A stretch of 64,000 nucleotides of DNA from Arenicellales bacterium. Lineage in GTDB: Bacteria; Pseudomonadota; Gammaproteobacteria; Arenicellales; JAJDZL01. Location of the stretch: the NCBI GenBank assembly GCA_958295885.1, contig OY282380.1, positions 3,472,001 to 3,536,000 of the forward strand, written 5' to 3'. Shown here in pieces: positions 35,145 through 57,467 of the stretch (its first letter is position 1; every line of letters starts with the position of its first letter). A model generated the notes under the pieces. The model worked only from the letters and a program-made list of their open reading frames with translations, did not search any database and was not told the origin of the DNA. A program made the translations under genes and the position numbers.

Positions 35145-35453
35145 TAAGCATGGGATTAAATGCAAGAGTAGCGAGGTCAGTTCGCAGAACAGTTCATTAT
35201 TGATTTCATACTGACGATTAAGCATATTGCCTGCAGCTTTTCACTTTGTCCTGTACATGCTAGGATGCATGATACTGCGCGGTTAATTCACTTCAAGAAG
35301 AGAATGAACTGATAAGGCCGCAATGAAAATCGTTAATTTGGGTCTCGGGATTTGAGGTAGTTCGAGCAAACATAGTAGGTTTGCTAAGTAAGAGTGTCTC
35401 GAAGACGTTCAAACTAAATGAAAAATTAAGTGTAAAGATTCACAAAGTTTCTA
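35145..35453. other. Intergenic stretch between XRE-ImmA and DUF4411 genes
   Basis: About 310 bp with no gene. In many related pairs the two genes are nearly contiguous, so this long gap may hold inserted DNA; nothing in it is recognisable. Confidence 0.4.
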
Positions 35454-35939
35454 ATGTCTAAAAATCCCAGATTCTACGTATTTGACACCGGGCCATTTAT
35501 AATTATGTTTCGATACTACTATCGTAGTATTTTCCCGTCTTTTTGGTCAGAGTTGGAACGTTTGATAGATGCTCGTCTTATAACTTCAACGCGGGAGGTG
35601 AAAAGAGAATTGGAACGAGGTGAAGATGAGGCAGAAAATTGGTGTAAGCAAAATCGAAGTTTATTTGTTACACCGTCGAATCAGGAACTTAATTTCGTTG
35701 CAGAAATTTTTAAGGTTCCGCATTTCCAAAATTTGATGAGTAGGAAAGACAGAAACTCCAAAAACCCAATAGCCGACCCGTTTGTAATCGCACGTTCCAA
35801 ATGTCTAAACAATAGTTGTGTTGTAACCACTGAGAGATTAAAGCCTAATGCATCAAGAATCCCCAATATTTGTAATTACTTTTGATATCGAGTGCATCAA
35901 TTTAAAACAGTTCATGGAATTTGAAAAGTTGAAATTTTA
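35454..35939 (+). pseudogene. DUF4411 PIN-like toxin candidate, C-terminus frameshifted
   Basis: The open part is 143 residues: MSKNPRFYVFDTGPFIIMFR, with the PIN-like first Asp in VFDTGPF, then STREVKRELERGED and ADPFVIARSK. After NICNYF it stops. One T fewer in the TTTT run at the stop would give DIECINLKQFMEFEKLKF, which is what the family C-terminus looks like. The protein is therefore 18 residues short through a single-base change in a homopolymer, or the sequence has an error there. All acidic candidate active-site residues are retained. Confidence 0.75.
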
Positions 35940-37412: not shown

Positions 37413-37418
37413 TATAAT
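37413..37418 (+). promoter_or_regulatory. Minus-10 box candidate for the TonB transcript
   Basis: A perfect TATAAT 12 bp upstream of the riboswitch 5' part, with a poor TTCCTG at about 18 bp upstream. The position fits transcription starting just before the cobalamin aptamer. Confidence 0.5.
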
Positions 37419-37429
37419 CGCTGACAGCA

Positions 37430-37597
37430 GTGGTTCCTATATTTGGGAAGCAATATGGAACAGGGTAAGGATTGACCGATGCCTTGGCTGCCCCCGCAAC
37501 TGTGTGCGGATAGCGACGGCTCAACAACGCCACTGGGAAACTGGGAAGGCCGAGCACAAGCAATAACCCGCAAGCCAGGAAACCTGCCACTGCCAGC
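37430..37597 (+). ncRNA. Cobalamin riboswitch 1 (upstream of tonB-like gene)
   Basis: Contains the conserved core in order: GGTTCC at the 5' arm, GGCTGCCCCCGCAACTGTG (B12 box partner), GCCACTGGG, GGGAAGGCC and the B12 box AAGCCAGGAAACCTGCC. Binding of a cobalamin would shut down the downstream TonB gene. Its sequence differs from riboswitches 2 and 3 outside the core. Confidence 0.93.
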
Positions 37598-37849
37598 GTT
37601 ACCCAACCATCGAACGGGGTGTTCTGGTGGGACGGGAACCCGTTATCGGTGGCGCGCCAGTTTGTAATTTAGAAAATTGCAATAGGACACCGTGATTTGG
37701 GTTTTTCTTCTTTCAGCGCTACGCAAAATGTTTCAGCAGGTCGGTTGAATTTTCTGGCCTCTTCAATTTTTATTGCGCCGTTCAGGCGGTGTTGCCCAGC
37801 CGCTCAAATTCTGCACGTCTGGCAATTTCCCAAATAATCTGCGAAGCCT
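37598..37849 (+). promoter_or_regulatory. Leader between riboswitch 1 and tonB-like gene
   Basis: About 250 bp, expected to hold the expression platform. GGGACGGGAACCCG-type short repeats near 37630 can form hairpins. No strong ribosome-binding site is visible right before the GTG at 37850. An earlier start is not excluded. Confidence 0.4.
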
Positions 37850-39931
37850 GTGAAACACCACCGAGCAAAAAATCTTTTTCTCTGCGTACTGCTGTCGCTC
37901 CTCGTGCATGCAGGAATCGCGGCGACTTTCGTCCACGCGGTCAGATTCAAGCCCGAGCCACTTCAGCTTGTCAGACCAATTCAGGTGACTTTGATCGAAG
38001 ATTATGCTGATGCAGTCGGAGACGGCGCGTCAGAATCCGACAGCGCCGGGCCTGGTCAGCAATATATTCAAATCCCGGCCAGAGAGGAGATTGAACAGAC
38101 TGAAAGCCCGCTCTTACAGGCCGGCAGCGGGGACCGCGGTTTCAATCGCATTGAATTTCCATTAATGGAAGAGGCAGCCAATGAACCCAAAACTGAATCA
38201 ATAGAGGCTGCCGAATTCCAGTCGGCGCGGACTGCTGAAGAAAAAGCAGAAGTCATGCGACCAACCCCGCTCGACGCAGTGAACGAAGCAGTCAGCAGCC
38301 TCTCGAAAAGCATCGGCTCGAAACCGGAGACGGCGCCGTCTCACGACGATAGTGCCTTGCACGATGAGATCAGCAGAGAAAATTCGACGACCGAGTCCGG
38401 TCAAAGCATCGACATTGACCCGTTACCGGCAGAGGCAGGCGCCTCAATTCCGGACGAATCAGAGTCCAGTATGCTGTCAGCGGAAGCGCCGAACGATTCG
38501 ACAGAACAATTTTCTGAACTGACACAGCATGCTGGCGCACAATCAGTTGAACTGGTCGCTGAGCCGACTGCAGCGCCAATGCAGGTCGCACCTGCTGCGC
38601 ACGCTGAACTGCCTGCCTCAGCAGAGCCCGAACTGGCGATCAATTCAATCGATCATCAATCTGACATGACTGCTCCTGCCGACAGATCGGTGAAGATTGA
38701 ATCTTCGCCGCCAAGTTCTGACTTGCATGATGCGCCTTCAGTCGGCAGTCTGCCTGTAGAGCCTGCATTCAAGTCCAGCAGCGATTGGGACCGACTGGCG
38801 ACCGCTTTGATTCCTGCAGCCGACGAAATTGAAGAGCCAGTTGAATCTGAATGGGAACTCACGCCAGAGCCAGTCACCCCGGCGGACCCCGCTGCTTTCA
38901 GGCAGTTGGAATCCTTCGTTTTCGATAGTGAGTTCGAACGTTTGACGCGAACCGAGCAGGAGCATGCTGCGAGTTTGGAAATGAAAACGTTGTCTGAACC
39001 CATGATCGCATCCGCCGCATACATTCCGGCGACAGCGGATGCCGACTGGATTGCAGGAATTCTGCCGAGTTCAGAGAACGTTCAGGATGCCTGGAAATTG
39101 AGAGAAAAACCGGCAGAAGAAGTCAACGCGGCAGAACCGGTACAAATCCGCCCCGATGCTCAGCTCGCAAGCATCTCTGACTTTGACGCCCAGGTTCAGC
39201 AGTTTGCACAGTCGGAATCGGACGCAGTCAATTCTATTGAGCCAGGAGGCGTCGAGAGTGAGTTGGCTCCAAGTCAGGTGACAATTTCAGGTTCTGATGA
39301 CTCGCGGACGCCGGCTGAAAAATCACAGGTCCGGACTGCTCCCCAGGACGCGAAACCCGACGAAGTCCTGCTGGCCAAGGCCGAAGCGCCGGATTCCGAA
39401 GCTGACGAATGGCAGAAGGCTTTGAAAAAACCGCTGCCGCCGGATCCGCCTGCTGCAGAGCGACGCTTGCCACGGCCTGCCGCCGCGGGTGATGCACCGC
39501 CGGATAGTGAACAGAAATCGAAGCGACAGGCCCAAGAGAATCAGGCTGCGCCAACCCAGCCCGAAATTGAAAAAATCTCGCCGGTTAAGCAGAAGACGAC
39601 CGGGAAATCCCGGCAGCAGGCATCGCTCGGCAGCGCTTCAGGTGAATCGAATCCCAGGTATGGAATCAGAGGACTGCCAAATCCTGCGCCGCGGTATCCA
39701 TTCAGGTCCCGCGCGAATGGAGAGCAGGGGAGAGTCATTCTGCAGGTCGTGGTTGACCGCAGGGGGCGAGCCGATGAAGTCACAGTCATCAAGTCCAGCG
39801 GCTATTCAAGACTGGATAAGGCAGCTAGGAAAGCAGTCAGCAAGTGGAGATTTCAGCCTGCGCAGAAAGACGGACGTTCGGCTCGAGGGACCGTGCAGGT
39901 GCCTATTTCTTTCGTGCTTGAAAATTCCTGA
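37850..39931 (+). CDS. Very long TonB-family energy transducer
   Basis: A 693-residue protein. The N-terminus is a signal anchor (LFLCVLLSLLVHAGIAATFV). About 560 residues of acidic, Ser/Ala/Glu-rich low-complexity sequence follow, with none of the Pro-Lys repeats of classic TonB. The C-terminal TonB domain is clear: NPAPRYPFRSRANGEQGRVI, VTVIKSSGYSRLDKAARKAV and KWRFQPA. It would couple the proton gradient to BtuB encoded 5.8 kb downstream. Classic TonB is about 240 residues. It follows riboswitch 1, so it is probably dedicated to cobalamin-type uptake. The start is GTG. Confidence 0.88.
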   Translation: MKHHRAKNLFLCVLLSLLVHAGIAATFVHAVRFKPEPLQLVRPIQVTLIEDYADAVGDGASESDSAGPGQQYIQIPAREEIEQTESPLLQAGSGDRGFNRIEFPLMEEAANEPKTESIEAAEFQSARTAEEKAEVMRPTPLDAVNEAVSSLSKSIGSKPETAPSHDDSALHDEISRENSTTESGQSIDIDPLPAEAGASIPDESESSMLSAEAPNDSTEQFSELTQHAGAQSVELVAEPTAAPMQVAPAAHAELPASAEPELAINSIDHQSDMTAPADRSVKIESSPPSSDLHDAPSVGSLPVEPAFKSSSDWDRLATALIPAADEIEEPVESEWELTPEPVTPADPAAFRQLESFVFDSEFERLTRTEQEHAASLEMKTLSEPMIASAAYIPATADADWIAGILPSSENVQDAWKLREKPAEEVNAAEPVQIRPDAQLASISDFDAQVQQFAQSESDAVNSIEPGGVESELAPSQVTISGSDDSRTPAEKSQVRTAPQDAKPDEVLLAKAEAPDSEADEWQKALKKPLPPDPPAAERRLPRPAAAGDAPPDSEQKSKRQAQENQAAPTQPEIEKISPVKQKTTGKSRQQASLGSASGESNPRYGIRGLPNPAPRYPFRSRANGEQGRVILQVVVDRRGRADEVTVIKSSGYSRLDKAARKAVSKWRFQPAQKDGRSARGTVQVPISFVLENS

Positions 39932-40029
39932 CCCACTGCAGCCTGCGGATTCGTTCAACCAAATTGTCAAACGATAATGAAAAATGCCAGGTAGCTGATA
40001 AAAAAATGTTTTAGAATAATCAACTGCTG

Positions 40030-40199
40030 TTTGAGGTGTTTGTTGCCGAATCGGTCCGAATTCAACGCAACACTTTAAATGGGAAGATTGGTGAACGAAG
40101 CCGGTGCATCGGATCTGTGCTTCGCAATTCCAACGCTGCCCCCGCAACGGTGATCAGCACCTGTGCTGTAAGTCCGGAACCAGCCTCCAGCAGGCCAGA
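40030..40199 (+). ncRNA. Cobalamin riboswitch 2 (upstream of cobN-like gene)
   Basis: Core elements: GCTGCCCCCGCAACGG, then CTGTGCTGTAAGTCCGGAACC and CCTCCAGCAGGCC, with GGGAAGATTGGTGAACGAAG earlier. It starts about 100 bp after the tonB-like stop, behind an AT-rich promoter-like region (TAGAATAAT at 40011-40019). It closely resembles riboswitch 3, including sequence beyond the aptamer. Confidence 0.93.
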
Positions 40200-40227
40200 A
40201 CGTATCGTTTTAGCGGAGGGCTTCAAC

Positions 40228-40353
40228 GTGGCAATTCAATCCACTCCCGAAATCCTCCTTCAACGCTGCTTCCAATTGGTTTTGAATGGATGGATCCTAT
40301 GCGTCACAATTTTGAAAATTTCGCCGCCCCCGCGCTGCCGCGGAATTTTCTGA
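40228..40353 (+). CDS. Candidate leader ORF after riboswitch 2
   Basis: A GTG-initiated frame of 41 codons (VAIQSTPEILLQRCF...) with a strong GGAGGG site 7 nt before the GTG. It overlaps the start of the CobN-like gene in another frame. The riboswitch 3 leader has the same GGAGGG-CTTCAAC-GTGGCAAT arrangement, which suggests that the start is used. Translation of this short ORF may relay riboswitch control to cobN. Its product need not be functional. Confidence 0.45.
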   Translation: MAIQSTPEILLQRCFQLVLNGWILCVTILKISPPPRCRGIF

Positions 40354-41996
40354 TCTTTGGTCCGGCACTCGTTTTCGTGCTGGCAGCTCTGGTTCCAAAC
40401 ACTGCCTTATCGGCTGCCATTGCTGCTGTCGTGTCCTCTCGTAATGCCGCAGACGTTGTAACAGGCGCCCATCAGTTTCTGCAGTCCTATCCTGCCAATC
40501 TGCTGAAACTTAAAACCAACGAACAGTTTTTGGAAATGTCGCAGCAGGCGCAGAAACAGTGGCTTGAATCTGCAGACATTGTTTTTGTCGGAGGTGTCTT
40601 TGCCGCAGCTGGAGAAAATATTCTGGCCGCTTCAAAAGCCGGATGGCTGCAGAACTTTATCGCAGTTCACTCGGACCGTCGATTGGTCGGCCTTTCTCGG
40701 CTGGCAGGAAAAGTGCTGCTGACTGACACCAGCCTTGATCAGCTCATGGTCGATCCGCCTGTCGATGGTGACTCCGAATTTTGGACTGCCAGGCTGCTCG
40801 AAGAGCATTCTGCGTACCGTCCGTGGCTCATGACAAGATTGTTCTGGAGCGGACGCAGTACCGAAAATATTACCAGTATGTTTGCGCACCTGGCCAATCT
40901 AGCGGGGGAAACCATCGCTGTTCCAGCACCCGTACCGTCGGCGCCAGTTCGGACGTACTATCGAGGTTCAGTCTACAGCGTTTCAAAACTGTCTGAACTG
41001 CTGAACAGAAAAGACAGACGCTGGGTGGTGATTCTCGACTATGAAACTGGCAGTCGGCTGGGTGCGGCGGATCTGCATCGGTCACTCTGCGGGCAGACGC
41101 AGAACGCCGATATCGACTGCGTTTCGCTGCTTGCAACCTGGGGTGATGCCAGTGTCGCAGCTGTCGATATGCTGCAGCAGAATCGCTCAAATGTTGCACT
41201 GATCGTTTCTCTCCAGAACTTCGTGACTGGCGGTGGAGAAGGACGGGCGGAAGTCAACTCAGCCCTCGCCAGACTTGGCGTACCGGTTCTCAAGGGAATC
41301 AGGTTGAGCGACAGAACTGAACAGATGCGGCGTCTGTCAGAAGACGGTGTGGCTTGGGACAGCGTTCACTATCGGGTTGCGATGTCGGAAATCCAGGGGA
41401 TTGCGGAACCAACCGTGCTATCTGTCAACACCGTACCCCGGATTGACGAACTGACTGGGATTCGAGTGACTCAGCAAAGACCCCTGGAAGACCAGACCAA
41501 GAGGTTTGTGCGCCGCATCAAGAAATGGATCGCTCTGCAGCGGAAGTCGAATGCCGAAAAGAAGATTGCGGTGATCTATTACAACCATCCGCCCGGGCGA
41601 CACAAAATCGGGGCCGATAATCTGAATGTTCCGTCAACAGTGTTCGAACTGCTGCATAAACTGAAATTTGAGGGCTACGAACTCGATTCACTGCCGGAAT
41701 CGGAAGCGGAGCTGCTGGATCTTCTGCAAGAACGCGCAGTCAATCTTCCTGATGACAGCGGCGGCAAAATCGCAAAACAATTGAGCAGGCGGGTCATCCA
41801 GGATCTGCGGCATGTCGTGGACGGCGCGGACCACCCGGCCCGCCAGCGTGTGCTGAACCTGATCGATCATCTTGATCAGGAGTTCGCAAAAAGTCTGAAA
41901 AATGTCCGCTGGGTGGACGCACAGAAATTAGTCGAAGCCATCGCCGCCAGCGGCATTGAAGGTTTGCGGGGATGGGGCCGCCGCCCGGACAGGTGA
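40290..41996 (+). CDS. CobN-like metal chelatase, N-terminal part with signal anchor
   Basis: The first of three overlapping frames that together make one CobN-like protein of roughly 1,400 residues. From the ATG at 40290 the N-terminus has a hydrophobic signal/anchor (FLIFGPALVFVLAALVPNTA), absent from cytoplasmic cobaltochelatase CobN, so the protein faces the periplasm. The body has IAVIYYNHPPGRHKIGADNL, the CobN hallmark near the middle of the family. It ends GLRGWGRRPDR, where the family reads GLRGWGPPPG; the frame is lost in a G-run. It lies behind riboswitch 2. Confidence 0.85.
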   Translation: MDPMRHNFENFAAPALPRNFLIFGPALVFVLAALVPNTALSAAIAAVVSSRNAADVVTGAHQFLQSYPANLLKLKTNEQFLEMSQQAQKQWLESADIVFVGGVFAAAGENILAASKAGWLQNFIAVHSDRRLVGLSRLAGKVLLTDTSLDQLMVDPPVDGDSEFWTARLLEEHSAYRPWLMTRLFWSGRSTENITSMFAHLANLAGETIAVPAPVPSAPVRTYYRGSVYSVSKLSELLNRKDRRWVVILDYETGSRLGAADLHRSLCGQTQNADIDCVSLLATWGDASVAAVDMLQQNRSNVALIVSLQNFVTGGGEGRAEVNSALARLGVPVLKGIRLSDRTEQMRRLSEDGVAWDSVHYRVAMSEIQGIAEPTVLSVNTVPRIDELTGIRVTQQRPLEDQTKRFVRRIKKWIALQRKSNAEKKIAVIYYNHPPGRHKIGADNLNVPSTVFELLHKLKFEGYELDSLPESEAELLDLLQERAVNLPDDSGGKIAKQLSRRVIQDLRHVVDGADHPARQRVLNLIDHLDQEFAKSLKNVRWVDAQKLVEAIAASGIEGLRGWGRRPDR

Positions 41997-43225
41997 TGGT
42001 TCACAACGGATCGATGGTTATTCCAGGAATTCAGTTTGGCAACGTTTTTGTCGGCCCGCATCCGCCGCGCGGGTGGGAGTTGGACGAGGAGCTGCTGCAT
42101 GCCAATCTGTTGCTTCCGCCACCTCATCAATACCTGGCATTTGATTTTTGGCTGCAAAATGAATTCAAGGCCGATGCAATCGTACACCTGTGCCGACATT
42201 CAACCTATGAATTCTTGCCGCGGCATCGGGTCGGACTCAGTGTGGAGGACTATCCGAACGCGGTTGTGGGAGAACTGCCCAGCATCTATCCCTACATCGT
42301 AGACGGCGTGGGCGAAGGAATCCAGGCGAAACGGCGCGGACTGGCGGTCATCATTGATCACCTGACGCCACCGCTGGACAGTACCGCCTTATACGACCGG
42401 CTGCTGGAATTGAGGCAGCTCGTCGAAAGCTACGAGACGGGTTCGCACGCCAACGAGGTCCTGCGAATGCGCACCGTGGATGAAATGAAAAGCCTGGTTG
42501 CCGAACTGAACCTGAAAAAAGAGCTGTTTGAAAGCATGTCGGGCGAACTGGAGGTTCGAGGGATCACCGAATTTTATCAGATCGACGATGAATTGCTGGT
42601 TCATGAAATCGGACACTATCTGACCGAACTTCAGGAACAGTTTATGTCGCTGGGGCTTCATACCTTTGGACGTGAATGGTCGAACGAGGCGTTGGACACG
42701 ATGGTGCGGTCAATGACGAAGGGAACCGAGCGGGAAGCTCCGCTGCCGACTGCCGAACGAATGGGTACGCAAATCGCTGAAAACTGGCGGGAGCTGCTCC
42801 GGCGTTCCCCGTCTGCGGAAGCCAGCGCTCTGCTGGCCGGCCTGGACGGAAAATACATCTCTCCCGGGAAAGGCAATGATCCCATACGAACACCGGAAGT
42901 ACTGCCGACGGGCCGAAATTTCTTTGCATTGGATGGCAGCCTGATCCCTTCGCCAGTTGGCTATCAGCTCGGCGTGGAAATGGCAGCAGCAGCGAGACTT
43001 AAACGTGCGGCCACACCACCCAGTAGTGAGAAAGTTCCCGATGCGAACGCGCTGGTGCTCTGGGCTTCCGATACGGTCCGCGATGAAGGAGCGATGATCG
43101 CCTTCGGTTTCGACATGCTGGGCCTGAAACCAGTCTGGAACAGCCGTGGGATTTTTAAGGGTCTGGAACGCCTGGACATCGCCGGAGTCGCTGAAGGCGG
43201 CAGCCCCGCAGAAGGCGCGACATGA
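41972..43225 (+). CDS. CobN-like chelatase, middle part (-1 frame)
   Basis: Continues the CobN sequence directly: MGPPPGQVMVHNGSMVIPGI, FGNVFVGPHPPRGWELDEE, HLCRHSTYEFLPR, then YPYIVDGVGEGIQAKRRG. The ATG at 41972 lies exactly at the junction and overlaps the preceding frame by 25 nt, so reinitiation could make a separate polypeptide. One extra G in the run at 41973-41976 would fuse both frames. The second half is helical and contains HEIGHYL. Conservation is strong throughout, arguing that the break is recent, programmed or a sequence error. Confidence 0.85.
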   Translation: MGPPPGQVMVHNGSMVIPGIQFGNVFVGPHPPRGWELDEELLHANLLLPPPHQYLAFDFWLQNEFKADAIVHLCRHSTYEFLPRHRVGLSVEDYPNAVVGELPSIYPYIVDGVGEGIQAKRRGLAVIIDHLTPPLDSTALYDRLLELRQLVESYETGSHANEVLRMRTVDEMKSLVAELNLKKELFESMSGELEVRGITEFYQIDDELLVHEIGHYLTELQEQFMSLGLHTFGREWSNEALDTMVRSMTKGTEREAPLPTAERMGTQIAENWRELLRRSPSAEASALLAGLDGKYISPGKGNDPIRTPEVLPTGRNFFALDGSLIPSPVGYQLGVEMAAAARLKRAATPPSSEKVPDANALVLWASDTVRDEGAMIAFGFDMLGLKPVWNSRGIFKGLERLDIAGVAEGGSPAEGAT

Positions 43226-44580
43226 TTTTTACGACATCCGGATTGTTTCGCGACCTATATGGCGCTCAGCTGGTTTGGCTGGAGCGTGCGGCATTGATGG
43301 CGCTGGATGCATCGGTCATTTATGTTCAGCAGAATTACCCGGCTCTGACGATTGCGCTGAATCATGCGCTGGAGCCGCTCGGAAATCTGCAGAATCCCGG
43401 TCGGGAGCCACTGTCAGTCAATCACGTGGCAGCCCGTTGGGTTGATGACGCACGCAAGTCGCTGGCCGAAGGCTCCTCTCCCATGCAAGCGGGCAAACGA
43501 ACCGCCTACCGGGTGTTTGGCGCGCCGCCGGGCGCCTATGGTGCGGGAGTCAATCGCATGGTCGAGCGCTCCGGCAGCTGGGAGCAGAGACAGGAAGTTG
43601 CACGGGTTTCCTTGAATCGGATGGGTCATGCCTACGGACCTGAACTTGCCGGAGAGCCTCGCCAGGCTGATTTCAGCGAGCGGTTGGCAACCGTTTCAAA
43701 CACTTATTTGGGAAGAGCCGGCAATTTATACGGGATACTGGATAACAATGACTCTTTCGATTACCTTGGCGGATTGAGCCTGGCAGTTGAAACCCAGCGA
43801 GGCGAAGCGCCGGACAACTACATTCTGCTACATGCGGACAGACACAACTATTCGGTTGAACCGCTGCAGAAAGCGCTGCTGCGCGAACTTCGAGGGCAGC
43901 ATCTCAATCCTCAGTGGCTGCAGCCGCTTATGGAAGAGGGATACGCCGGCGCGCGTACCATGGGCAGCGAATTTCTGGAGTACCTTTGGGGATGGCAGGT
44001 CACCAACCCGGGAATTGTCAAATCCTGGGTCTGGAATGAAGTCAAGAGCGTGTATTTGGACGACCGTCTGGGGCTGGGGCTCGATGAATTCCTTGAACAG
44101 GGACACAATGTCCACGTGTTGACCAACATGCTGGCGATCATGCTGGTTTCTGCCCAGAAAGAATTCTGGGAGGCCAGTCAGGAGACGATTGCCGAAGTTG
44201 CCGAACGGTTTGCCGAACTGGTCTTGGCCAACGGACTGCCTGGAAGCGGCGATACCAGTCCCTCTCACCTGCTATATGACTGGCTGGAAACTTATTTTCC
44301 GCCCGAAAAATATGCGCAGCTCAGGGCAGTCGTCACCGCAGCACAAGTCGATTATCAAATCGCCCAGGGCCCCGCGGAAATCTCTGAAATTGTAATGCAG
44401 CCTGAAGAACCTGCCAGCGTGGCCGATTCCACAGCGCGCCAGTCAATCGACGAGACAGCTGACGCCGTTCGCCAACAGCCATTGCCCGTACCGCCGGTTT
44501 ACATTCTGCTCGCCGCGTGCCTGGCGTTGATTGCATTGGGATGGATTCTTGGCACCAGGCGCCACGTAGTCACCGCTTAG
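43222..44580 (+). CDS. CobN-like chelatase, C-terminal part with membrane anchor
   Basis: The third piece, again in the -1 frame. It starts in an ATGA overlap with the previous stop: MIFTTSGLFRDLYGAQLVWL, the conserved CobN segment that normally follows RPRRD. It has YRVFGAPPGAYGAGVN, LDNNDSFDYLGGLSLAVE and GARTMGSEFLEYLWGWQVT. After the catalytic region, a Gln/Glu-rich linker leads to a C-terminal helix (VYILLAACLALIALGWILG) and a short basic tail. Such an anchor is seen in HmuS-type chelatases, not in CobN of B12 synthesis. The next gene follows 12 nt later. Confidence 0.87.
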   Translation: MIFTTSGLFRDLYGAQLVWLERAALMALDASVIYVQQNYPALTIALNHALEPLGNLQNPGREPLSVNHVAARWVDDARKSLAEGSSPMQAGKRTAYRVFGAPPGAYGAGVNRMVERSGSWEQRQEVARVSLNRMGHAYGPELAGEPRQADFSERLATVSNTYLGRAGNLYGILDNNDSFDYLGGLSLAVETQRGEAPDNYILLHADRHNYSVEPLQKALLRELRGQHLNPQWLQPLMEEGYAGARTMGSEFLEYLWGWQVTNPGIVKSWVWNEVKSVYLDDRLGLGLDEFLEQGHNVHVLTNMLAIMLVSAQKEFWEASQETIAEVAERFAELVLANGLPGSGDTSPSHLLYDWLETYFPPEKYAQLRAVVTAAQVDYQIAQGPAEISEIVMQPEEPASVADSTARQSIDETADAVRQQPLPVPPVYILLAACLALIALGWILGTRRHVVTA

Positions 44581-44592
44581 GGATGCAGGACA

Positions 44593-45051
44593 ATGTTTAG
44601 TGGATATACGATCGGGTTTCTTCATTCTGTCGTCAATTGGCTGCTGCATCCTGTCATCTGGACGCTGATGGCGGTGACTGTCTGGGCCTTGATCGAAGTC
44701 GGTGTTCTGCTGGCTGAATACTTTCGAACGCTGCCAGGGATGCGGTCAGATGGTGACATTTACGCAGTAGAGCACTTGGCAAAACGCAGAATCGACCACT
44801 GTGACTTTTTGGCCCGAATCGCACCAATGCTGGGATTGATGGGCACCCTGATTCCGTTGGGTCCGGGTCTGGCCGCATTGGGCGAGGGAGAATTGACCAT
44901 CCTGTCGACCGCAGTCAGCGTCGCTTTTGATACGACGGTGCTGGGCTTAATGGTTGGCATTGCAGGATTCGTCATGGGCAGACTTGGGCGCCGTTGGTAT
45001 GACGAGCTGTTGACTAGTCTGGAAGCCGAACAGATGGAACGCGGATCGTGA
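44593..45051 (+). CDS. MotA/TolQ/ExbB-like proton channel protein
   Basis: A 152-residue membrane protein. After an N-terminal helix (LHPVIWTLMAVTVWALIEVG) it shows the family core ARIAPMLGLMGTLIPLGPGL followed by STAVSVAFDTTVLGLMVG, two helices lining the proton channel of ExbB/TolQ/MotA proteins. It overlaps the DUF2149 gene by 4 nt (GTGA) and lies 12 nt after the CobN-like gene. The tight linkage suggests a proton-driven motor for the envelope chelatase rather than a general ExbB. Confidence 0.88.
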   Translation: MFSGYTIGFLHSVVNWLLHPVIWTLMAVTVWALIEVGVLLAEYFRTLPGMRSDGDIYAVEHLAKRRIDHCDFLARIAPMLGLMGTLIPLGPGLAALGEGELTILSTAVSVAFDTTVLGLMVGIAGFVMGRLGRRWYDELLTSLEAEQMERGS

Positions 45052-45341
45052 GCCGGCGCTGGGAACAGGGAAGATTTTCATCTTCCGATCAGGAAACCGT
45101 CGGCCCTTTGGCCAACCTGCTTGATCTGATGCTGGTTTTTGCGTGTGGACTGACTGTCGCACTCGTAGCAATGAGCTCTCAGTTGCAGGAATATTTTGCG
45201 GTTGCTCCACAACCGGTTGAACGGGGGCAGGAACTGGCTGAAATGCCGCAGGCCGGCGAAGAGGGAGGAGCGGGCATGGTTCCTGTCGGTCAGCTCTTTC
45301 AAGACCCTGAAACCGGACAGTTGATTTTGCTGAGACAATGA
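45048..45341 (+). CDS. DUF2149 protein, ExbD-like partner
   Basis: A 97-residue protein with one N-terminal helix after a short polar stretch: PLANLLDLMLVFACGLTVAL, where the Asp in LLDLMLVF recalls the channel Asp of ExbD/TolR. It ends QDPETGQLILLRQ, a signature of DUF2149. DUF2149 genes are found with MotA/TolQ/ExbB and CobN-like genes in bacteria and archaea. It would form the channel stator with the preceding protein. The start is GTG, coupled to the upstream stop. Confidence 0.87.
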   Translation: MSRRWEQGRFSSSDQETVGPLANLLDLMLVFACGLTVALVAMSSQLQEYFAVAPQPVERGQELAEMPQAGEEGGAGMVPVGQLFQDPETGQLILLRQ

Positions 45342-45513
45342 AAATGCGCCAGGTGGAGAACAGGAATTCGAACCGATCAGCCCGGTCCTGCAGCCGATTG
45401 CAGCGGCTGGTCAAGCTGGTTGTTTCGCATCTGAATTCCCGTGATCTTATTGAATTTCATTTCATCTGTTCGCGTCATTCAAAAAGACGTATTTTTTTGA
45501 TTATTCACTCTTT

Positions 45514-45682
45514 GTACGAGGTGCTTGTTGCCGGATCAGATCGAACTTCAGGCAACAGCATAATTGGGAAGCTTGGTGAGCAAAGCCTGATGCTTGGGTT
45601 TGTGCTTCGCAATCCCAGCGCTGCCCCCGCAACGGCGATCAGCGCCTGTGCTGTAAGTCCGGAACCGGCCTCCTGCAGACCA
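45514..45682 (+). ncRNA. Cobalamin riboswitch 3 (upstream of btuB)
   Basis: Core: GAGGTGCTTGTTGCCGG, GGGAAGCTTGGTGAGCAAAG, GCTGCCCCCGCAACGGC, CCTGTGCTGTAAGTCCGGA and ACCGGCCTCCTGCAGACC. Very similar to riboswitch 2, so the two probably arose by duplication. It would repress BtuB when cobalamin is plentiful. Confidence 0.94.
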
Positions 45683-45713
45683 GAACAATCTGTTTTAGCG
45701 GAGGGCTTCAACG

Positions 45714-45740
45714 GTGGCAATCTTAATTCCTGCCCCCTGA
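45714..45740 (+). CDS. Candidate 8-codon leader peptide after riboswitch 3
   Basis: GTG GCA ATC TTA ATT CCT GCC CCC TGA, preceded by GGAGGG as in the riboswitch 2 leader. The shared GGAGGG-CTTCAAC-(G)GTGGCAAT block lies beyond the aptamer, so it is likely part of the expression platform. It may couple sequestration of this site to downstream translation of btuB, whose own ATG lies 45 nt later. Confidence 0.4.
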   Translation: MAILIPAP

Positions 45741-45784
45741 TTTTCTCTTTTCACACCATTTTTTGCTTTTGATGAGGATATAAG

Positions 45785-47665
45785 ATGTACAGACACTTTC
45801 AAATTTACGCGTGTATTCTGTTGATGCTTGCAGCGCCGTTGTCGTCCGCACAGCAGCAGGAACAGGACGAAAACGCGCTCGACGAAATTGTAGTCACGGC
45901 TACGCGTGTGCCTACACCGCTAGCTGACACCTTGCCTTCAACCGCGATCATTACTTCCGAAGATATTGAACGGATTCAGCCCAAAGACCTCGGAACGCTG
46001 CTGTCCCTCAAAAGTGGAGTGAGATTCAGAGACAGCGGAGGCAGAGGTTCGATTGGAGGGCTTTTCGTTAGAGGTTCGGCATCCATCCAAGTTCTTGTTC
46101 TGATCGATGGCATACGTACCGCGAGCGCGACGAATGGTGCGACTGCGATTGAGCAGATTCCACTCGAATCGATCGAGCGCATCGAAATCATCAAAGGTCC
46201 GATGTCGGGGGTGTACGGGGCGGATGCCATTGGCGGAGTCATCCAGATATTTACCAAGAAGTACGAGCAGGAAGGCTCGTTCGCGACCATGAAAGCGACG
46301 GCTGGCAGCAATCAGCTGCGTCACTACGAAGCCCGAGCCGGCTACGGGCAGGAGACGTACAGCATCACAGCATCTTTGTCGAAAGAATCGACTGACGGCA
46401 TCGACAGCACGGAATTCAAAGGGGGTGGCAATGAAGACCGCGATGGATTTGAGCAAGCCTCGGAAAACGTTTCTTTTTCAACACTCCTGCAAGATGATCT
46501 GTCTTTGAGACTCAGTCATGTTCAAAGCAGGGTCAACGTGGATTACGACAATATCAGCAACTTTGGAAGTTCCTCGAAAGCCAACTTGGGTAAAAATTGG
46601 CATCAGCGCGCCAAGTTGAATACCACATCCGCACACGTTGATTATGACTATTCTGACAAATTGAGCATTTCAGGAATTTTTGGCGCGAGCAAAATTTTTC
46701 GGACGGATAACACGCCGGACAAATCGGTGCAGCGAACACACTTCAACACACGAAAAACAGATTCATTGATTCAGGCAAACTATATCCTGTCCTCGCAGAA
46801 CCAGCTCACTTTCGGTGTGGATTACCAGCGGGACAAGGTCGATTCTACTACCTCGTATGAGGCTGCACAGCGTACCAACAGAGGAATGTTTTTCCTGTGG
46901 CAGCGGGAAGGCGACCGCTCCAGTACCGTACTCAGCACCCGTCATGATAAAAATGACAGCTATGGCTCAGAATCGAATTACAGTCTGCAGCAGTCGTTTG
47001 ACCTGTCAGATCAATACCAGTTCGTCACCAGTTTCGGAACCGCGTTCAGAGCGCCAACGTTCAATGATTTATATTGGCCTGATTCAGGCAATCCAGATTT
47101 AAAACCCGAAGAGAGCAAATCGTTCGAGTTATCCTTACGGTCCAATCACAATGACTTATTTTGGCAGATTAATGGCTACCAGACAAAAGTTGATAACTTG
47201 ATCGATTGGGCACAGGTTACTCCTGGCATATGGAAACCTTCGAACATCAACAAGGCTACATTGAAAGGGATTGAAGTTGAGCTGACCAGGGAATGGAATG
47301 ATTACGTTCTCAATGCGAGCCTGGACTACTTGGATGCGAAAGACGACAACACTGGCAGATTCCTGGAAGACAGAGCGCGAGCTTCCGGTTCTTTTGAACT
47401 GGGAAAACAGATTGACAGGCTTTATGTCGGAGTTGATGCAATATTTGAACATTCTCGATTTGACAATCAAAGACCACAGCAGGCGCTGCCTGGCTATGCC
47501 CTCTGGGGGATCAGCGCCAAGTACGAATATTCAGATTCGCTGTTGATATCAGGCCATGTCGATAACCTGTTCGACAAGGAATATGTCACCAATCTGGCAG
47601 GGTCCAATAACGCTTACCAGAATGAAGGGCGAACGATTGAAGTCACACTTGAGTACAGATTTTAA
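45785..47665 (+). CDS. btuB: BtuB-type TonB-dependent outer membrane receptor
   Basis: A 626-residue receptor. A signal peptide ends near SSAQQ. The TonB box region reads DEIVVTATR, and the plug domain has TLPSTAIITSEDIERI and RIEIIKGPMSGVYGADAIGG. The beta-barrel ends in the terminal Phe (EVTLEYRF) needed for outer membrane insertion. It imports cobalamin or related corrinoids with energy from TonB. It follows riboswitch 3 and precedes the adenosyltransferase gene. The frame is intact. Ligand specificity is inferred from the riboswitch and neighbours. Confidence 0.93.
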   Translation: MYRHFQIYACILLMLAAPLSSAQQQEQDENALDEIVVTATRVPTPLADTLPSTAIITSEDIERIQPKDLGTLLSLKSGVRFRDSGGRGSIGGLFVRGSASIQVLVLIDGIRTASATNGATAIEQIPLESIERIEIIKGPMSGVYGADAIGGVIQIFTKKYEQEGSFATMKATAGSNQLRHYEARAGYGQETYSITASLSKESTDGIDSTEFKGGGNEDRDGFEQASENVSFSTLLQDDLSLRLSHVQSRVNVDYDNISNFGSSSKANLGKNWHQRAKLNTTSAHVDYDYSDKLSISGIFGASKIFRTDNTPDKSVQRTHFNTRKTDSLIQANYILSSQNQLTFGVDYQRDKVDSTTSYEAAQRTNRGMFFLWQREGDRSSTVLSTRHDKNDSYGSESNYSLQQSFDLSDQYQFVTSFGTAFRAPTFNDLYWPDSGNPDLKPEESKSFELSLRSNHNDLFWQINGYQTKVDNLIDWAQVTPGIWKPSNINKATLKGIEVELTREWNDYVLNASLDYLDAKDDNTGRFLEDRARASGSFELGKQIDRLYVGVDAIFEHSRFDNQRPQQALPGYALWGISAKYEYSDSLLISGHVDNLFDKEYVTNLAGSNNAYQNEGRTIEVTLEYRF

Positions 47666-47768
47666 CTGCGCATCTGTCAAAAAGTTTTGCGGCCGCGCGC
47701 CAATCTGAGAATCAAATGAAGACTCGCAGAGCATCCCATCAGTTCAGGACTAACGGAGTGAGCATGAT

Positions 47769-48377
47769 ATGAGTGATCCCAACATCAATGAAAGACACAG
47801 ACAAAAAATGCAAAAACTGAAGGAGAAGGTCGATGCGCGGGTGAAAAGGGCATCCATCGAACGCGGCGTGTTTGTTTTTTTGACCGGCAACGGCAAAGGA
47901 AAAAGCAGCTCTGCTTTCGGCATGGTTCTCAGAGCGATCGGCTACGGACAGAAAGTCGGTGTCGTGCAGTTCATCAAGGGTAACCGCATTACGGGCGAAT
48001 CTTTGTTTTTCGGCAGTGTGCATCCCGAAGTCGATCATTACCAGATGGGCACGGGTTTTACTTGGGACACCCAGGATCGAACCCGCGATATTGCAGCTGC
48101 CGAAAAGACCTGGCAGGTCGCCAGCAGGATGCTGGCGGACCAGACGTACGACCTGGTTGTGCTGGATGAATTGACTTACATGCTCGGGTACAAGTATCTG
48201 GATGCAGAAAAAGTCCTTGATGCCATCGCCAGCCGTCCGACCGAGCAGAGTGTCGTCGTTACCGGACGCGGGGGCGGAGGCGCACTCAGGAAACTGGCGG
48301 ATACGGTATCGGAAGTTAAAGAAATCAAGCACGCATTTAAGTCAGGAATCAAAGCGCGCCCCGGCGTCGACCTTTGA
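47769..48377 (+). CDS. cobO: Corrinoid adenosyltransferase, CobA/CobO type
   Basis: A 202-residue enzyme that adds the 5'-deoxyadenosyl group from ATP to cob(I)alamin or cobyrinic acid diamide. The P-loop is GNGKGKSSSAF at residues 40-50. VGVVQFIKG, VVLDELTYML and the ending FKSGIKARPGVDL are family features. It lies 103 nt after btuB, so imported corrinoids would be adenosylated. The gene is intact, unlike the salvage genes that follow. Confidence 0.94.
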   Translation: MSDPNINERHRQKMQKLKEKVDARVKRASIERGVFVFLTGNGKGKSSSAFGMVLRAIGYGQKVGVVQFIKGNRITGESLFFGSVHPEVDHYQMGTGFTWDTQDRTRDIAAAEKTWQVASRMLADQTYDLVVLDELTYMLGYKYLDAEKVLDAIASRPTEQSVVVTGRGGGGALRKLADTVSEVKEIKHAFKSGIKARPGVDL

Positions 48378-48555: not shown

Positions 48556-48960
48556 ATGCGACTGATGCTGCCTAAATCCTGTTTTGTTTTGTTGATCGTT
48601 TAATCGATTGCGGCCGGCATTGCTGGACTGCTGATCGGACCAGTTCAGGTTTCGCCTGCCGTTCTATTGGACATGCTGACGTCTGATGAACCCCAATCTC
48701 GAGACCAGATGATCATTCAGGCGATCAGACTGCCGCGCATGCTGCTGAGTTTTCTGATCGGCACCGTTTTGGCCAGTTGTGGAGCCGTTCTTCAAGGACT
48801 GTTCAGAACTCCCTGGCTGATCCATCCCTGATTGGCGTGTCGGCCATGCGTCAGCTGGGGCAAGTTTTGTCATTGTGTTCGGAACGCTTCTTTTTCCGTC
48901 TTCCGTATTGGGACTGCCCGCGGTTTCCCAGGGTCACCAAGAGGCGCTGGCTCTTATGAA
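48556..48960 (+). pseudogene. btuC: BtuC-like ABC permease pseudogene
   Basis: MRLMLPKSCFVLLIV then an in-frame TAA, then SIAAGIAGLLIGPVQVSPAV, IRLPRMLLSFLIGTVLASCG and AVLQGLFRTP, followed by a shift to LADPSLIGVSA and another to ASFVIVFGTLLFP. These are the first four helices of the BtuC/FecD family. The last two thirds are missing, and no BtuD ATPase is found nearby. Import of corrinoids across the inner membrane by BtuCDF therefore looks lost here. Confidence 0.85.
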
Positions 48961-49121
48961 CGCGGCTCCGCTGCTGAGCATTTGGCTGCGGCTGGGGGAA
49001 GGGAGCGGTGCGGCGGTTGTTTGTCCCATCTTGCAGTGTGCCTTGAAACTTCACGCCGAAATGGCTACCTTTGAGCAGGCGAGTGTCAGCAGCAAATCAA
49101 CCTGATCCGGTTTCGTGCACT
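48961..49121. other. Short stretch between btuC remnant and cobC-like gene
   Basis: Contains an open frame (LMNAAPLLSIWLRLGEG) contiguous with the btuC remnant but without family similarity. It probably marks a deletion joint that removed the rest of btuC and the ATPase gene. Confidence 0.4.
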
Positions 49122-49790
49122 ATGATCGACCTTCTCCGACATGGAGTCTGCGAGGGCGGTGAAATCTTGCGCGGATCAACCGATGTTGAACTGCTGCCGG
49201 AAGGCGTGGACCAGATGGACGCTGCTGTACGGCAGCATCTGGACTGGAAGAGGGTGATCAGCTCGCCGCTCAAACGCTGCCGCGCATATGCTGAACTCAT
49301 CGCCAGGCGCCGCAACATCGCGCTTCACATAGACGAACGCTGGCGGGAGATCGACTTCGGAGAATGGGACGGTCAGGAGATCGCGGTGATTTATCGGAAG
49401 CACCCGAAAGAAGCGCGTTTGTTTTACTCGCAGCCTGAAAGCTTTACGCCTCCTGCAGGAGAACCTCTTGCTGCAGCCAAGGACCGGGTGGCGGCGGCGT
49501 TCAGCGAATCGCTTGAACTGTACCGGGGCGAACGCCTGCTGGTCATTCAGCACGGCGGTACGGCCCGTCTGCTGCTGACTCACATATTGGGAATGCCGCT
49601 TTCACACGCCATTCGAATTGATGTCCCTTACGCATGCTTGACTCGAATTCGGGTTTATCACGAAAAGGATGAAATTTTCCCGGTGCTGATCTCACACAAT
49701 GCTGAATCCGCCGCCCATCTCACATCATTTTCAATCCTTCAGGGCGGCCGTGCAGTCTATGACGTGCCTGCCAGCAGGTTCCGCGGATGA
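49122..49790 (+). CDS. cobC: CobC-like histidine phosphatase (alpha-ribazole phosphatase)
   Basis: A 222-residue phosphatase of the phosphoglycerate-mutase-like family. The catalytic RHG is in IDLLRHGVCEGG, followed by SSPLKRCRAYAEL, the REIDFGEWDGQE region and the second His in VIQHGGTARLLL. In B12 assembly it removes phosphate from alpha-ribazole 5'-phosphate or adenosylcobalamin 5'-phosphate. The ATG at 49122 gives the family N-terminus. It overlaps the cobS start by 92 nt. The frame is intact, although its neighbours are broken. Confidence 0.85.
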   Translation: MIDLLRHGVCEGGEILRGSTDVELLPEGVDQMDAAVRQHLDWKRVISSPLKRCRAYAELIARRRNIALHIDERWREIDFGEWDGQEIAVIYRKHPKEARLFYSQPESFTPPAGEPLAAAKDRVAAAFSESLELYRGERLLVIQHGGTARLLLTHILGMPLSHAIRIDVPYACLTRIRVYHEKDEIFPVLISHNAESAAHLTSFSILQGGRAVYDVPASRFRG

Positions 49791-50056
49791 TGTGCCGGCG
49801 ACCGCGCGCAATAACATACTGTTTTGGTATCCAATGGTCGGAGTTGCGATCGGCTTCATTCTGATTCTGGGTGAATGGCTTGCTGCACCGCTGCCTGACT
49901 TTTTGCAGGCTGCGCTGCTGGTGACGCTTTGGGGTGACTATCACAGGCGGTCTTCATTTGGATGGGCTGGCGGACTGCGCCGATGCCTGGGTGGGAGGAC
50001 TGGGCAGTCGGGAAAGAACCTTAAAATAATGGAAGACCCCCGATGCGGAACTATGG
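49699..50056 (+). pseudogene. cobS: Cobalamin synthase pseudogene, 5' part
   Basis: CobS joins GDP-cobinamide and alpha-ribazole in the inner membrane. This part reads ARNNILFWYPMVGVAIGFIL, then one extra G shifts the frame; the next frame gives VTITGGLHLDGLADCADAWV, and one missing A shifts it back to TLKIMEDPRCGTM. The metal-binding GGLHLDGLADCADA motif is present. The two single-base changes compensate. The gene is then cut by an IS1182-family insertion at 50057 and resumes at 52074. Confidence 0.9.
50051..50056. repeat. Target-site duplication, left copy
   Basis: CTATGG directly left of the IS1182-family element; the same six bases lie directly right of it at 52074-52079. Confidence 0.85.
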
Positions 50057-52073
50057 AGGCTGTGTATTTATTGATTCCTTATCGAACCGACTCTGGCGAG
50101 TCTGATCAAATTGATGAATTTGAAGTGGCAATCAGTAAATCCTGCTCGTCTGATCCTCAATTTCTGAATCAAGCAGCCAAAAATGGGACTAAAAAGCCTC
50201 AAAATTGCTCCTCAAATCACCGTTTTTTTGTGTTTCAACCGCATTTCACCCTTATTTCCTAATTTTGGGCGCAATACGACATCAGAGCTTCGAATCCCAC
50301 TAGATTGAGCGCCCTTTTGAAGTTGTAACTCAGAGCCATCAGCGAAAATTCACCCTGACATTTGGGCAGGGTTCGCATCATGAAATGACGCATCTGCCAG
50401 TTGTGCTTGAAGGTGCCGAAGGGATGTTCCACGATTGAACCGCGTTCGCGGGCCTGAGCAGGATGCTCCTTGAGGCGCTGTCGATTGCGTTCTACTGAAG
50501 CTTCATGGATCGAGCGATGGATCGTTCGACATCGAGCCTTCGGCGACAGACACTGCTCACTCAGAGGGCAGGCCTGACACTGTGCCGTACTGGCGCGATA
50601 GATCACATACTGTTTGTTTTTATTGCGGAATGTTCCACCACGCTTTAGTGTTTCTTCGGCCGGACAGACATAGACATCGGCCTCGGCATCATAGTTGAAA
50701 TCGTCCCGACCAAAGCGTCCGCCGCGTCCTTTACGACTCGCATGCTGAGGCTCGGCCACCACCACTTCAAATCCCTTCTGCTCGCAGGCATCCAGCTGTT
50801 CCGCGCTGTGATACCCGCTATCGGCCAGACCCTTGAGCTCGTCATTACACAGCGTCTCGGCGGCGTCGGTCATCATCGGCTCCAACTGCTGCTTGTCGTT
50901 TCCGTCCTGAGTGACCTGTTCTGCCACGATTAATTTGTGTTTGTCATCAACGACAATCTGTACGTTGTAGCCGGGTGTCGTCTTCCCGTTTTTTTTCAGC
51001 AGACGCGCATCCGGATCCACCTCGCTGATCTGACTGTCACCACTGGCTTCGAGCTTCGCCTGCAATTCTTTTTTTTCTTTCTGACGCTCAAGCCAATAAT
51101 CCATTTTGGCTTTCAATTCAGATACTTCCGCCAACTCTTCGGCTTCAGCTTCGTCGGCATCGAATTCGTCCAACTGCCGATAATATTCCTCAATGCGCGC
51201 CTGCATCTGCTGCAGCTGACGCTGCAGCTGCCTGTCGGTATGGATGGTGCCGGCATTGGCATCGGCTTTCAAATAGGTGCCGTCAATCGCCACCAGCTGT
51301 CCGCCAAACAATTTCAACCCCTGGCACAGGCTGACAAACTCACGCTGCGCCGCTTTCAACGCATCAACGTTGTCTTTTCTGAAATCGGCAATCGTCTTGT
51401 AACACGGAGTCGCCTTCTGACACAGCCAGATCAACTCCAGATTGCGCCACAGCTCCGCTTCCAACCTGCGCGAACTGCGAATTCGATGCTGATAGCCATA
51501 CACGTATAACTTCAGCAGCATTTTCGGATGGTAAGCCGGCTGTCCGACACCGCTGCTGACTTGGCTCTGTTTGAAGCCGAGCTCCTGCAGTTGCAAGGAT
51601 TCCACCCAGGCGTCGATCACACGCACTGGATTATGTTCTTTTACATAGTCGTCCAAACACGCCGGCAGCCACGCCTGCTGGTCGCGGCTGAGCATGGGTT
51701 TATAACGTCTTTGATTCATTGAATGTATTTCATATCTTATTGATTTAGTGAAACTAATTATAGCATATTTCACTGCTCAAAGATCATTGAATGCGACCTC
51801 GATGGACTTTTTCAGTCGACTCGCCTGCGCCCGCTCAGCCAGCCTGCATGCAACCACCGTTTCCGCCTGTCTGCCTACAAATAAAGCATATTCCCGCCAT
51901 CACTCAGTATGCGACTGAGCTGCCGTCTTCAATCTTTTTCAGGCTGCTCAGCTGACAACAGCCCATTTTCACAGCTGCGCAGCTCATTTCAACGATTCCA
52001 GATGTTGTCACTCACAATTATGTCCGTTTTCATCCATTCGTAAATTTGCTGTCTAATAATACTTTCACAGCCT
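50057..52073 (-). mobile_element. Complete IS1182-family insertion sequence in cobS
   Basis: A 2,017-bp element. Its ends carry the inverted repeat AGGCTGTG followed by similar AT-rich sequence, and it is flanked by a 6-bp duplication CTATGG. Removing the element plus one duplication restores the cobS frame exactly (CGTM joined to AVIAVT). The transposase is intact, so this is a fairly recent insertion. Confidence 0.9.
50259..51719 (-). CDS. IS1182-family transposase
   Basis: A 486-residue DDE transposase from the ATG at 51719 (MNQRRYKPMLSRDQQAWLP). It has PAYHPKMLLKLYVYGYQHRI at the N-terminus and the first Asp in QLVAIDGTYLKADAN. A coiled-coil insert (QLQRQLQQMQARIEEYYRQL) follows, then GYNVQIVVDDKHKLIVAEQV, LADSGYHSAEQL with the second Asp, a Cys-rich CPAEETL...CQACPLSEQC stretch, and ERGSIVEHPFGTFKHNWQMR. 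The frame is intact, and the enzyme is presumably active. Confidence 0.93.
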   Translation of the reverse strand: MNQRRYKPMLSRDQQAWLPACLDDYVKEHNPVRVIDAWVESLQLQELGFKQSQVSSGVGQPAYHPKMLLKLYVYGYQHRIRSSRRLEAELWRNLELIWLCQKATPCYKTIADFRKDNVDALKAAQREFVSLCQGLKLFGGQLVAIDGTYLKADANAGTIHTDRQLQRQLQQMQARIEEYYRQLDEFDADEAEAEELAEVSELKAKMDYWLERQKEKKELQAKLEASGDSQISEVDPDARLLKKNGKTTPGYNVQIVVDDKHKLIVAEQVTQDGNDKQQLEPMMTDAAETLCNDELKGLADSGYHSAEQLDACEQKGFEVVVAEPQHASRKGRGGRFGRDDFNYDAEADVYVCPAEETLKRGGTFRNKNKQYVIYRASTAQCQACPLSEQCLSPKARCRTIHRSIHEASVERNRQRLKEHPAQARERGSIVEHPFGTFKHNWQMRHFMMRTLPKCQGEFSLMALSYNFKRALNLVGFEALMSYCAQN

Positions 52074-57429: not shown

Positions 57430-57467
57430 TTTGACAAAGATCTGCTTTGTGCAAAGACTGAGGAACT

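Follow-up and report, generated by a model that had tools for sequence, protein, structure and literature searches.

The window analyzed here is a stretch of 64,000 nucleotides (positions 3472001-3536000) from the genome of an Arenicellales bacterium assembled as a single contig of 4.42 Mb, and it contains a cluster of cobalamin (vitamin B12) genes built around a CobN-like gene of the BtuS/HmuS type. Coordinates are those of the window, and features lie on the forward strand unless stated otherwise. A first cobalamin riboswitch (37414-37605; Rfam RF00174, 99.7 bits) precedes the gene of a 693-residue TonB (37850-39931; PF03544, E=1.9e-25), and a second (40017-40202; 52.6 bits) stands directly 5' of the CobN-like gene (40290-44580; PF02514). 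The latter is followed by the genes of an ExbB/MotA/TolQ-like proton-channel protein (44593-45051; PF01618, E=1.3e-10) and of a DUF2149 protein (45048-45341; PF09919, E=5.8e-7), in which one membrane helix with an ExbD-like Asp was recognized by conservation. The third riboswitch (45502-45687; 47.1 bits) lies 5' of a gene for a BtuB-like TonB-dependent receptor (45785-47665; PF00593 and PF07715), after which comes that of a CobO/BtuR corrinoid adenosyltransferase (47769-48377; PF02572, E=4.4e-58). All three riboswitches, already reported in an initial annotation made from the sequence of the window, score above the RF00174 gathering cut-off and are the only ones in the genome. The TonB, receptor, and adenosyltransferase that it named are likewise confirmed by open frames and Pfam matches, and the frames of the ExbB-like and DUF2149 proteins are intact as well.

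The CobN-like gene itself is broken. It is split over three open reading frames (ORFs) in three frames (40104-41996, 41972-43225, and 43222-44580), which match successive parts of PF02514 and jointly cover profile positions 3-1090 with small gaps; no single intact reading frame exists in this genome's copy. Alignment across all three frames with intact references of the same order (L012, L013, and L014, about 1450 residues each) located a first frameshift in a GGGG run that is one base short (41974-41977, frame 3 to frame 2, between RGWG and PPPG) and a second in a CCCC run that is also one base short (43204-43207, frame 2 to frame 1, between GGSP and RRRRD). In addition, an in-frame deletion of about 54 residues (junction at 41765-41800, near 41780) has removed L013 residues 487-546, a segment that includes residues invariant in the clade of close relatives described below. 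At 325 positions invariant among 18 intact clade members, the window copy has 20 changed residues and has lost 7 more with the deletion (two further gaps reflect trimming at a junction), compared with 0-5 changes in 11 further intact members that were held out as a control. The window ExbB and DUF2149 proteins, changed at 3 of 43 and 4 of 20 invariant positions, respectively, exceed nearly all their relatives. The signal-like N-terminal segment and the C-terminal helix noticed in the initial annotation are both present, but the CobN-like sequence is not one reading frame. Of the gene overlaps that it described, that between exbB and the DUF2149 gene is a normal one, whereas those within the CobN-like gene are frameshifts; separate overlapping genes were rejected, since the intact relatives have one ORF. 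The window gene is a pseudogene, and a CobN-like enzyme is unlikely to be made here.

Decay extends to cobalamin genes on both sides. Upstream, on the reverse strand, cobQ (29270-30710; tblastn with L033/L037 CobQ; PF07685 and PF01656) carries one in-frame stop and two frame changes. Downstream, about the first third of btuC is left, with a stop or frameshift (48619-48936; tblastn with L033/L034 BtuC; PF01032 positions 3-69 only), and the cobamide synthase gene cobS is interrupted between its 5' part (49699-50040; PF02654 positions 1-99) and its 3' part (52046-52498; positions 92-207) by an element with a transposase on the reverse strand (50259-51773; PF01609/PF05598). The adjoining cbiB (52495-53412; PF03186) has an in-frame TGA at 53056-53058, through which the alignment continues, and a btuF-like gene (53646-54405; tblastn with L034 BtuF) is frameshifted over frames +3 and +1. 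A CobC-like histidine phosphatase (49071-49790; PF00300) is also encoded in this region. As a control, about 16,700 aligned coding residues around rpoB were compared with a congener and contained no frameshift, so that the lesions are local and do not stem from poor assembly. We read the locus as the decaying form of a cluster for corrinoid salvage under repression by cobalamin; with the chelatase gene and many of the salvage genes disrupted, the chelatase step has probably been lost in this genome. BtuB, TonB, and CobO may still serve uptake. B12 is still in use in this genome, which encodes proteins of the methylmalonyl-CoA mutase type as well as several small corrinoid proteins (named by reading their sequences), and btuFCD-like genes occur near 1.19 Mb and 1.58 Mb. 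DUF2149 was absent from all five congeners examined.

Some further features were recorded in this genome. Three small corrinoid-binding proteins of about 250-300 residues (genome positions 3114996, 667286, and 40987) look MttC/MtaC-like by eye, a hint that the organism carries out methyl transfer dependent on corrinoids. The stretch separating the B12 locus from the cobQ remnant holds a group II intron RNA (RF02005; 32425-32639) and an adjoining reverse-transcriptase-like ORF (32740-33672). ORFs judged by eye to encode an ImmA/IrrE-type regulator-like protein with a PIN-like neighbor, and AbiEii-like nucleotidyltransferases, were seen at 33960-35885 and 57118-58130.

A scan of public genomes retrieved 74 relatives of the CobN-like gene, of which 32 were close. 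The hosts of the close relatives include Methylophaga, Nitrosomonas, Aestuariicella, Pseudomaricurvus, Arenicella, Parahaliea, Stutzerimonas, Methylobacillus, Methylovorus, and Nitrospina, among others. In these genomes the exbB and DUF2149 genes lie downstream of the CobN-like gene at every locus with enough sequence (30/30), forming a triad with it. A cobalamin riboswitch was found directly 5' of the CobN-like gene, or heading its btuB-containing operon, in 24 of the 28 loci with a visible upstream region. In Methylobacillus and Nitrospina the CobN-like gene is embedded among btuB, cobO, cobB, cobU, btuF, cobQ, and cbiB (btuB-cobO-cobB-cobN operons). Arenicella-type loci, mostly without a detectable riboswitch, have the triad followed by genes for CbiZ (adenosylcobinamide amidohydrolase) and a carbon-nitrogen hydrolase (nitrilase) with signal-peptide-like N-termini (L012:6158-8448, L013:5960-8064, and L026:6795-8953). 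To judge from these N-termini, the two enzymes may form a periplasmic corrinoid-trimming pathway; a literature search turned up no paper on exported CbiZ. Many intact triads stand without btuB or tonB beside the CobN-like gene. CbiC/CobH was found in none of the 31 carrier genomes, this genome included, so that no carrier would make the corrin ring by known routes. CobT is missing from this genome, in agreement with the absence from the window noted earlier, and from 28 of the 31 carriers.

Other observations concern the same neighborhoods. CobT-family matches (PF06213) occur in G067, G069, and G070, the carriers of L024, L026, and L027, and these genomes are without CbiC. In L020, L030, L038, L040, and L043, an arrangement that recurs near the triad is a cobalamin riboswitch with the genes of a TonB-dependent receptor and of a PepSY_TM protein behind it. 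Directly after btuB in the Methylobacillus/Methylovorus B12 operons (L035:5773-6342, L037:5762-6331, and relatives) there is a multi-helix protein of about 190 residues without a Pfam match, possibly a BtuM-type B12 transporter. At one triad locus without a cobalamin riboswitch, a thiamine pyrophosphate riboswitch (L014:9347-9477) lies between the DUF2149 gene and that of a TonB-dependent receptor.

Maximum-likelihood trees of the window copy, clade members, archaeal proteins, and CobN placed the window copy inside a monophyletic CobN-like clade (bootstrap 100). Archaeal membrane-anchored proteins adjoin this clade (bootstrap 96), while CobN of PDB 9uk9 and cyanobacterial CobN form a separate group (bootstrap 100), and a position within cytoplasmic CobN was not found for the window copy. 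Essentially all full-length clade members carry a hydrophobic segment at the N terminus and a helix at the C terminus, both absent from cyanobacterial CobN, which suggests that the clade consists of membrane-anchored, periplasmic proteins. The body of an intact member (L024) was modeled with a class I chelatase fold at a mean predicted local distance difference test score of 79, and the model matches 7c6o, 4zhj, and 9d26 with Z 37-50. Structure comparison was dropped as a means of telling CobN from the heme de-chelatase HmuS, because the methods disagree: the aligner favors CobN (Z 49.7 for 7c6o versus 37.7 for HmuS), Foldseek puts the two level, and whole-protein sequence scores give HmuS as the best solved match.

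In HmuS, a cation is held by His-538 and His-1209 from opposite sides of the cleft, and the H538A mutation abolishes activity (PMC12583661). The equivalent of His-538 (HmuS motif HFG(T/A)HG) is universal in the superfamily and corresponds in the clade to the conserved His of GRHSTYEFLP. The HmuS-1209 position is His in the porphyrin enzymes HmuS and ChlH, and Asp in three CobN sequences (9uk9, 9fpc, and 7c6o), in cyanobacterial CobN, in all of the approximately 30 clade members, and in the window. The HmuS motif LSLDHxxEFMGG is replaced by DNNDxFDYLGG or DNNDxFDYMGG in all clade members; His-1209, Glu-1212, Ser-1014, and Trp-1202 give way to Asp, Asp, Ala, and Tyr throughout. Of the axial heme ligands of HmuS, His-254 aligns with Glu, and Met-79 lies in a region outside the alignment. 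The methionine-rich insertion of HmuS (domain IV) is absent, about 260 HmuS residues (634-896) corresponding to about 60 profile positions (780-842). When a 170-residue segment of the domain with the 1209 position was compared with solved structures, fragments of CobN matched best, HmuS followed closely, and the match to ChlH was far weaker. Since the Asp at this position is of the CobN type, a corrinoid is favored over heme, and we consider it very probable as the substrate.

The partner proteins suggest how such an enzyme could be driven. The large one belongs to the ExbB/MotA/TolQ family, whereas the small one belongs to PF09919 and not to the ExbD family PF02472, which it matches weakly around the Asp helix (E 0.013). 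In bacteria and archaea alike, DUF2149 has conserved the Asp with which the helix starts, a trait shared with ExbD, and is without the periplasmic domain of ExbD; given this weak local match, DUF2149 was not accepted as a proven ExbD homologue. In a Methanophagales archaeon, CbiM, an ATP-binding cassette ATPase, ExbB, DUF2149, and a membrane-anchored CobN-like protein are encoded in one row. Of 148 genomes sampled from this archaeon's phylum, 48 encode DUF2149, and ExbB adjoins it in 34 of the 35 archaeal loci examined. A CobN-like gene lies within 1.5 kb of the archaeal pair in nine of these loci and was found in 16 of 20 others with a 7-kb flank. These archaea have neither an outer membrane nor TonB, which makes the CobN-like protein the likeliest partner of their pair. 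ExbB/DUF2149 thus probably powers the chelatase instead of TonB.

The explanation that we favor, and regard as probable when taken as a whole, is that the window holds a decayed salvage cluster whose intact counterpart, the triad, is a periplasmic proton-driven chelatase acting on corrinoids. Its core would be the CobN-like protein, held to the inner membrane by both ends, together with the ExbB-like proton channel and DUF2149. A corrinoid would enter the periplasm through the B12 receptor, presumably BtuB, and lodge in the cleft of the chelatase, flanked by the superfamily His and the CobN-type Asp. Proton flow through ExbB/DUF2149 would then drive a change of shape, replacing the ATP-driven CobS/CobT motor, which cannot work outside the cytoplasm. 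This change would lead to cobalt insertion into, or metal exchange of, imported corrinoids that are incomplete or wrongly metallated, and the product would pass to the importer, CobO, and the loop-assembly enzymes. Proton drive is, in our judgment, reasonably likely. As for direction, B12 repression, the CobN-type Asp, and a cobB-cobN-cobO neighborhood that mirrors the late aerobic pathway favor insertion or exchange, the activity of the relative HmuS and the exported CbiZ and nitrilase favor removal, and we give insertion or exchange about an even chance. More tentatively, and just short of an even chance, we propose a class I chelatase outside the cytoplasm driven by the proton motive force, in which the ExbB-like/DUF2149 pair replaces the AAA+ proteins CobS/CobT (ChlI/ChlD) for metal insertion or exchange in corrinoids, in bacterial B12 importers and, in an older form, in methanogenic archaea.

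Part of the initial annotation, which had envisaged an envelope chelatase working on corrinoids with the ExbB-like pair as its motor, holds at the level of the family, through anchoring, riboswitches, the CobN-type Asp, and archaeal triads in cells without an outer membrane, and fails for the window gene, which is a pseudogene. The search for riboswitches at CobN-like/DUF2149 loci that it had suggested gave the 24 of 28 reported above. Neither of the two outcomes that it had named as refuting was seen: the clade lies apart from the cytoplasmic cobaltochelatases, and its members have the CobN-type Asp, most of them together with a cobalamin riboswitch, instead of being heme-type homologues without a cobalamin link.

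Several points weigh against the favored explanation. By whole-protein sequence score the nearest relative of solved structure is HmuS, which removes metal, needs no ATP, and is active without the motor pair (PMC12583661), and a literature search found no activity measurement or other experiment on any member of the clade. The Asp signature is a single position. The only ExbD-family protein of this genome is TolR, found with tolQ- and tolA-like genes, and the archaea may have corrinoid synthesis of their own, so that they may use the triad for something else. A CobT-family protein is present in three carriers. CbiC occurs in only 21 of 184 genomes of the window's class, and its absence from all 31 carriers would have a chance of about 0.02 if genomes were independent, which they are not. 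We therefore do not use this absence as strong proof of a salvage-only role, with which it is consistent.

Among the alternatives, it is doubtful that the intact enzyme harvests metal, be it cobalt or another, by stripping corrinoids or related tetrapyrroles of it. This is the direction in which HmuS works, the triad of Arenicella-type loci is followed by exported CbiZ and nitrilase, and an archaeal triad adjoins the cobalt importer CbiM; however, repression by B12 fits saving corrinoids rather than destroying them, the active site has the Asp of the inserting enzyme CobN, and cobalt bound in a corrin is very inert. It is also unlikely that ExbB/DUF2149 is the Ton motor of the B12 receptor and that the CobN-like protein works without the pair, given the archaeal triads in cells without outer membrane or TonB, the many bacterial triads with neither tonB nor btuB beside them, and the weak resemblance of DUF2149 to ExbD, whose periplasmic domain it lacks. 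Such a motor would nevertheless agree with the TonB and BtuB genes in the same cluster, with TolR as the genome's only ExbD-family protein, which means that the pair may also power TonB here, and with published readings of HmuU/HmuV (PMC12583661) and of the Geobacter lovleyi genes (PMC3403914).

Less probable still, the CobN-like protein could be a non-catalytic corrinoid binder or an energized relay to the inner-membrane importer. The head and neck domains of class I chelatases resemble periplasmic binding proteins (PMC12583661), the CobN-like gene is under cobalamin control, and the carriers only import corrinoids, but the residues of the catalytic cleft are invariant and a simple binder would not need them. 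A heme de-chelatase of the HmuS kind, with incidental riboswitches, is very improbable despite the best solved whole-length match and a shared membrane-anchored plan with ExbB-like and small partner proteins: the residues that define HmuS are replaced throughout the clade, its axial His-254 aligns with Glu, its methionine-rich insertion is missing, no hmuY was seen in the neighborhoods, and cobalamin genes and riboswitches surround the CobN-like gene. We give hardly any credence to a functional CobN-like gene in this genome, with frameshifts due to sequencing error or with ORFs that are separate subunits or joined by programmed frameshifting. In favor of this reading, each frameshift amounts to one base missing from a short run of G or C, a frequent kind of error, start codons are found close to the ORF junctions, and hmuS of Bacteroides thetaiotaomicron was once wrongly frameshifted in an assembly (PMC12583661). 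Sequencing error is nevertheless rejected by the rpoB-region control and by in-frame stops, a truncation, and a transposon in neighboring cobalamin genes that are not indel errors, invariant residues are lost inside the still-open parts, and the relatives are intact as single ORFs.

If the triad is indeed a proton-driven corrinoid chelatase, ExbB-type motors would power an enzyme, besides transport, swimming, and cell-envelope upkeep, and bacteria could mend scavenged corrinoids or metallate them anew outside the cytoplasm. This reading would further bear on the CobN/HmuS-like proteins in methanogens without heme uptake or aerobic B12 synthesis, a question left open by PMC12583661. The His/Asp position offers a cheap sequence test of porphyrin versus corrin substrates for thousands of proteins annotated as CobN. 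In this genome, annotation would give three 'CobN' genes for what is one dead gene in a dying salvage cluster.

Among known systems, the clade resembles the heme de-chelatase HmuS of B. thetaiotaomicron (PDB 9d26; PMC12583661) and BtuS1/BtuS2 of B. fragilis (PMC6460266), BtuS having been described as a third CobN-related type (PMC6460266). They share the class I chelatase fold, the signal or N-terminal helix, the C-terminal membrane helix, an ExbB-like and a small membrane partner in the operon, and the superfamily His-538. Unlike HmuS, the clade has none of His-1209, Glu-1212, Ser-1014, and Trp-1202, a Glu aligned with His-254, no Met-rich insertion, and a cobalamin riboswitch with B12 genes in place of hmuY/hmuR. 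CobN of CobNST (PDB 9uk9, 7c6o, and 9fpc) is alike in fold and in the Asp at HmuS-1209 (Z 49.7 to 7c6o), but it is soluble and needs CobS/CobT, whereas the clade is membrane-anchored, accompanied by ExbB/DUF2149, and found in genomes without corrin synthesis. The cobN-exbB-exbD-tonB cluster of Geobacter lovleyi plasmid pSZ77 (PMC3403914) has a similar gene order beside cobalamin genes, without CobS/CobT; it was read there as a transport system, with its function stated to be unknown, and riboswitch, anchoring, and active-site type were not analyzed in that work. The hmu-like operons of B. fragilis (PMC10100974), which belong to Bacteroidota, outside the present sample, and are likened here by description alone, include a CobN-like operon under a cobalamin riboswitch for which cobalamin was suggested as the substrate. 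Among archaea, the membrane-anchored CobN-like proteins (e.g., Methanophagales L046) share the ExbB-DUF2149-CobN-like triad, the Asp type, and the terminal membrane helices, and differ in their single-membrane cells, the lack of BtuB/TonB, and longer N-terminal regions. The CobN-like/exbB-type arrangement is thus already known from Geobacter and Bacteroides, while the definition of a clade linked to cobalamin riboswitches, the distinction between His and Asp, the use of the widespread archaeal triad to argue about the motor, the exported CbiZ/nitrilase companions, and the death of the window copy are new as far as our literature searches go.

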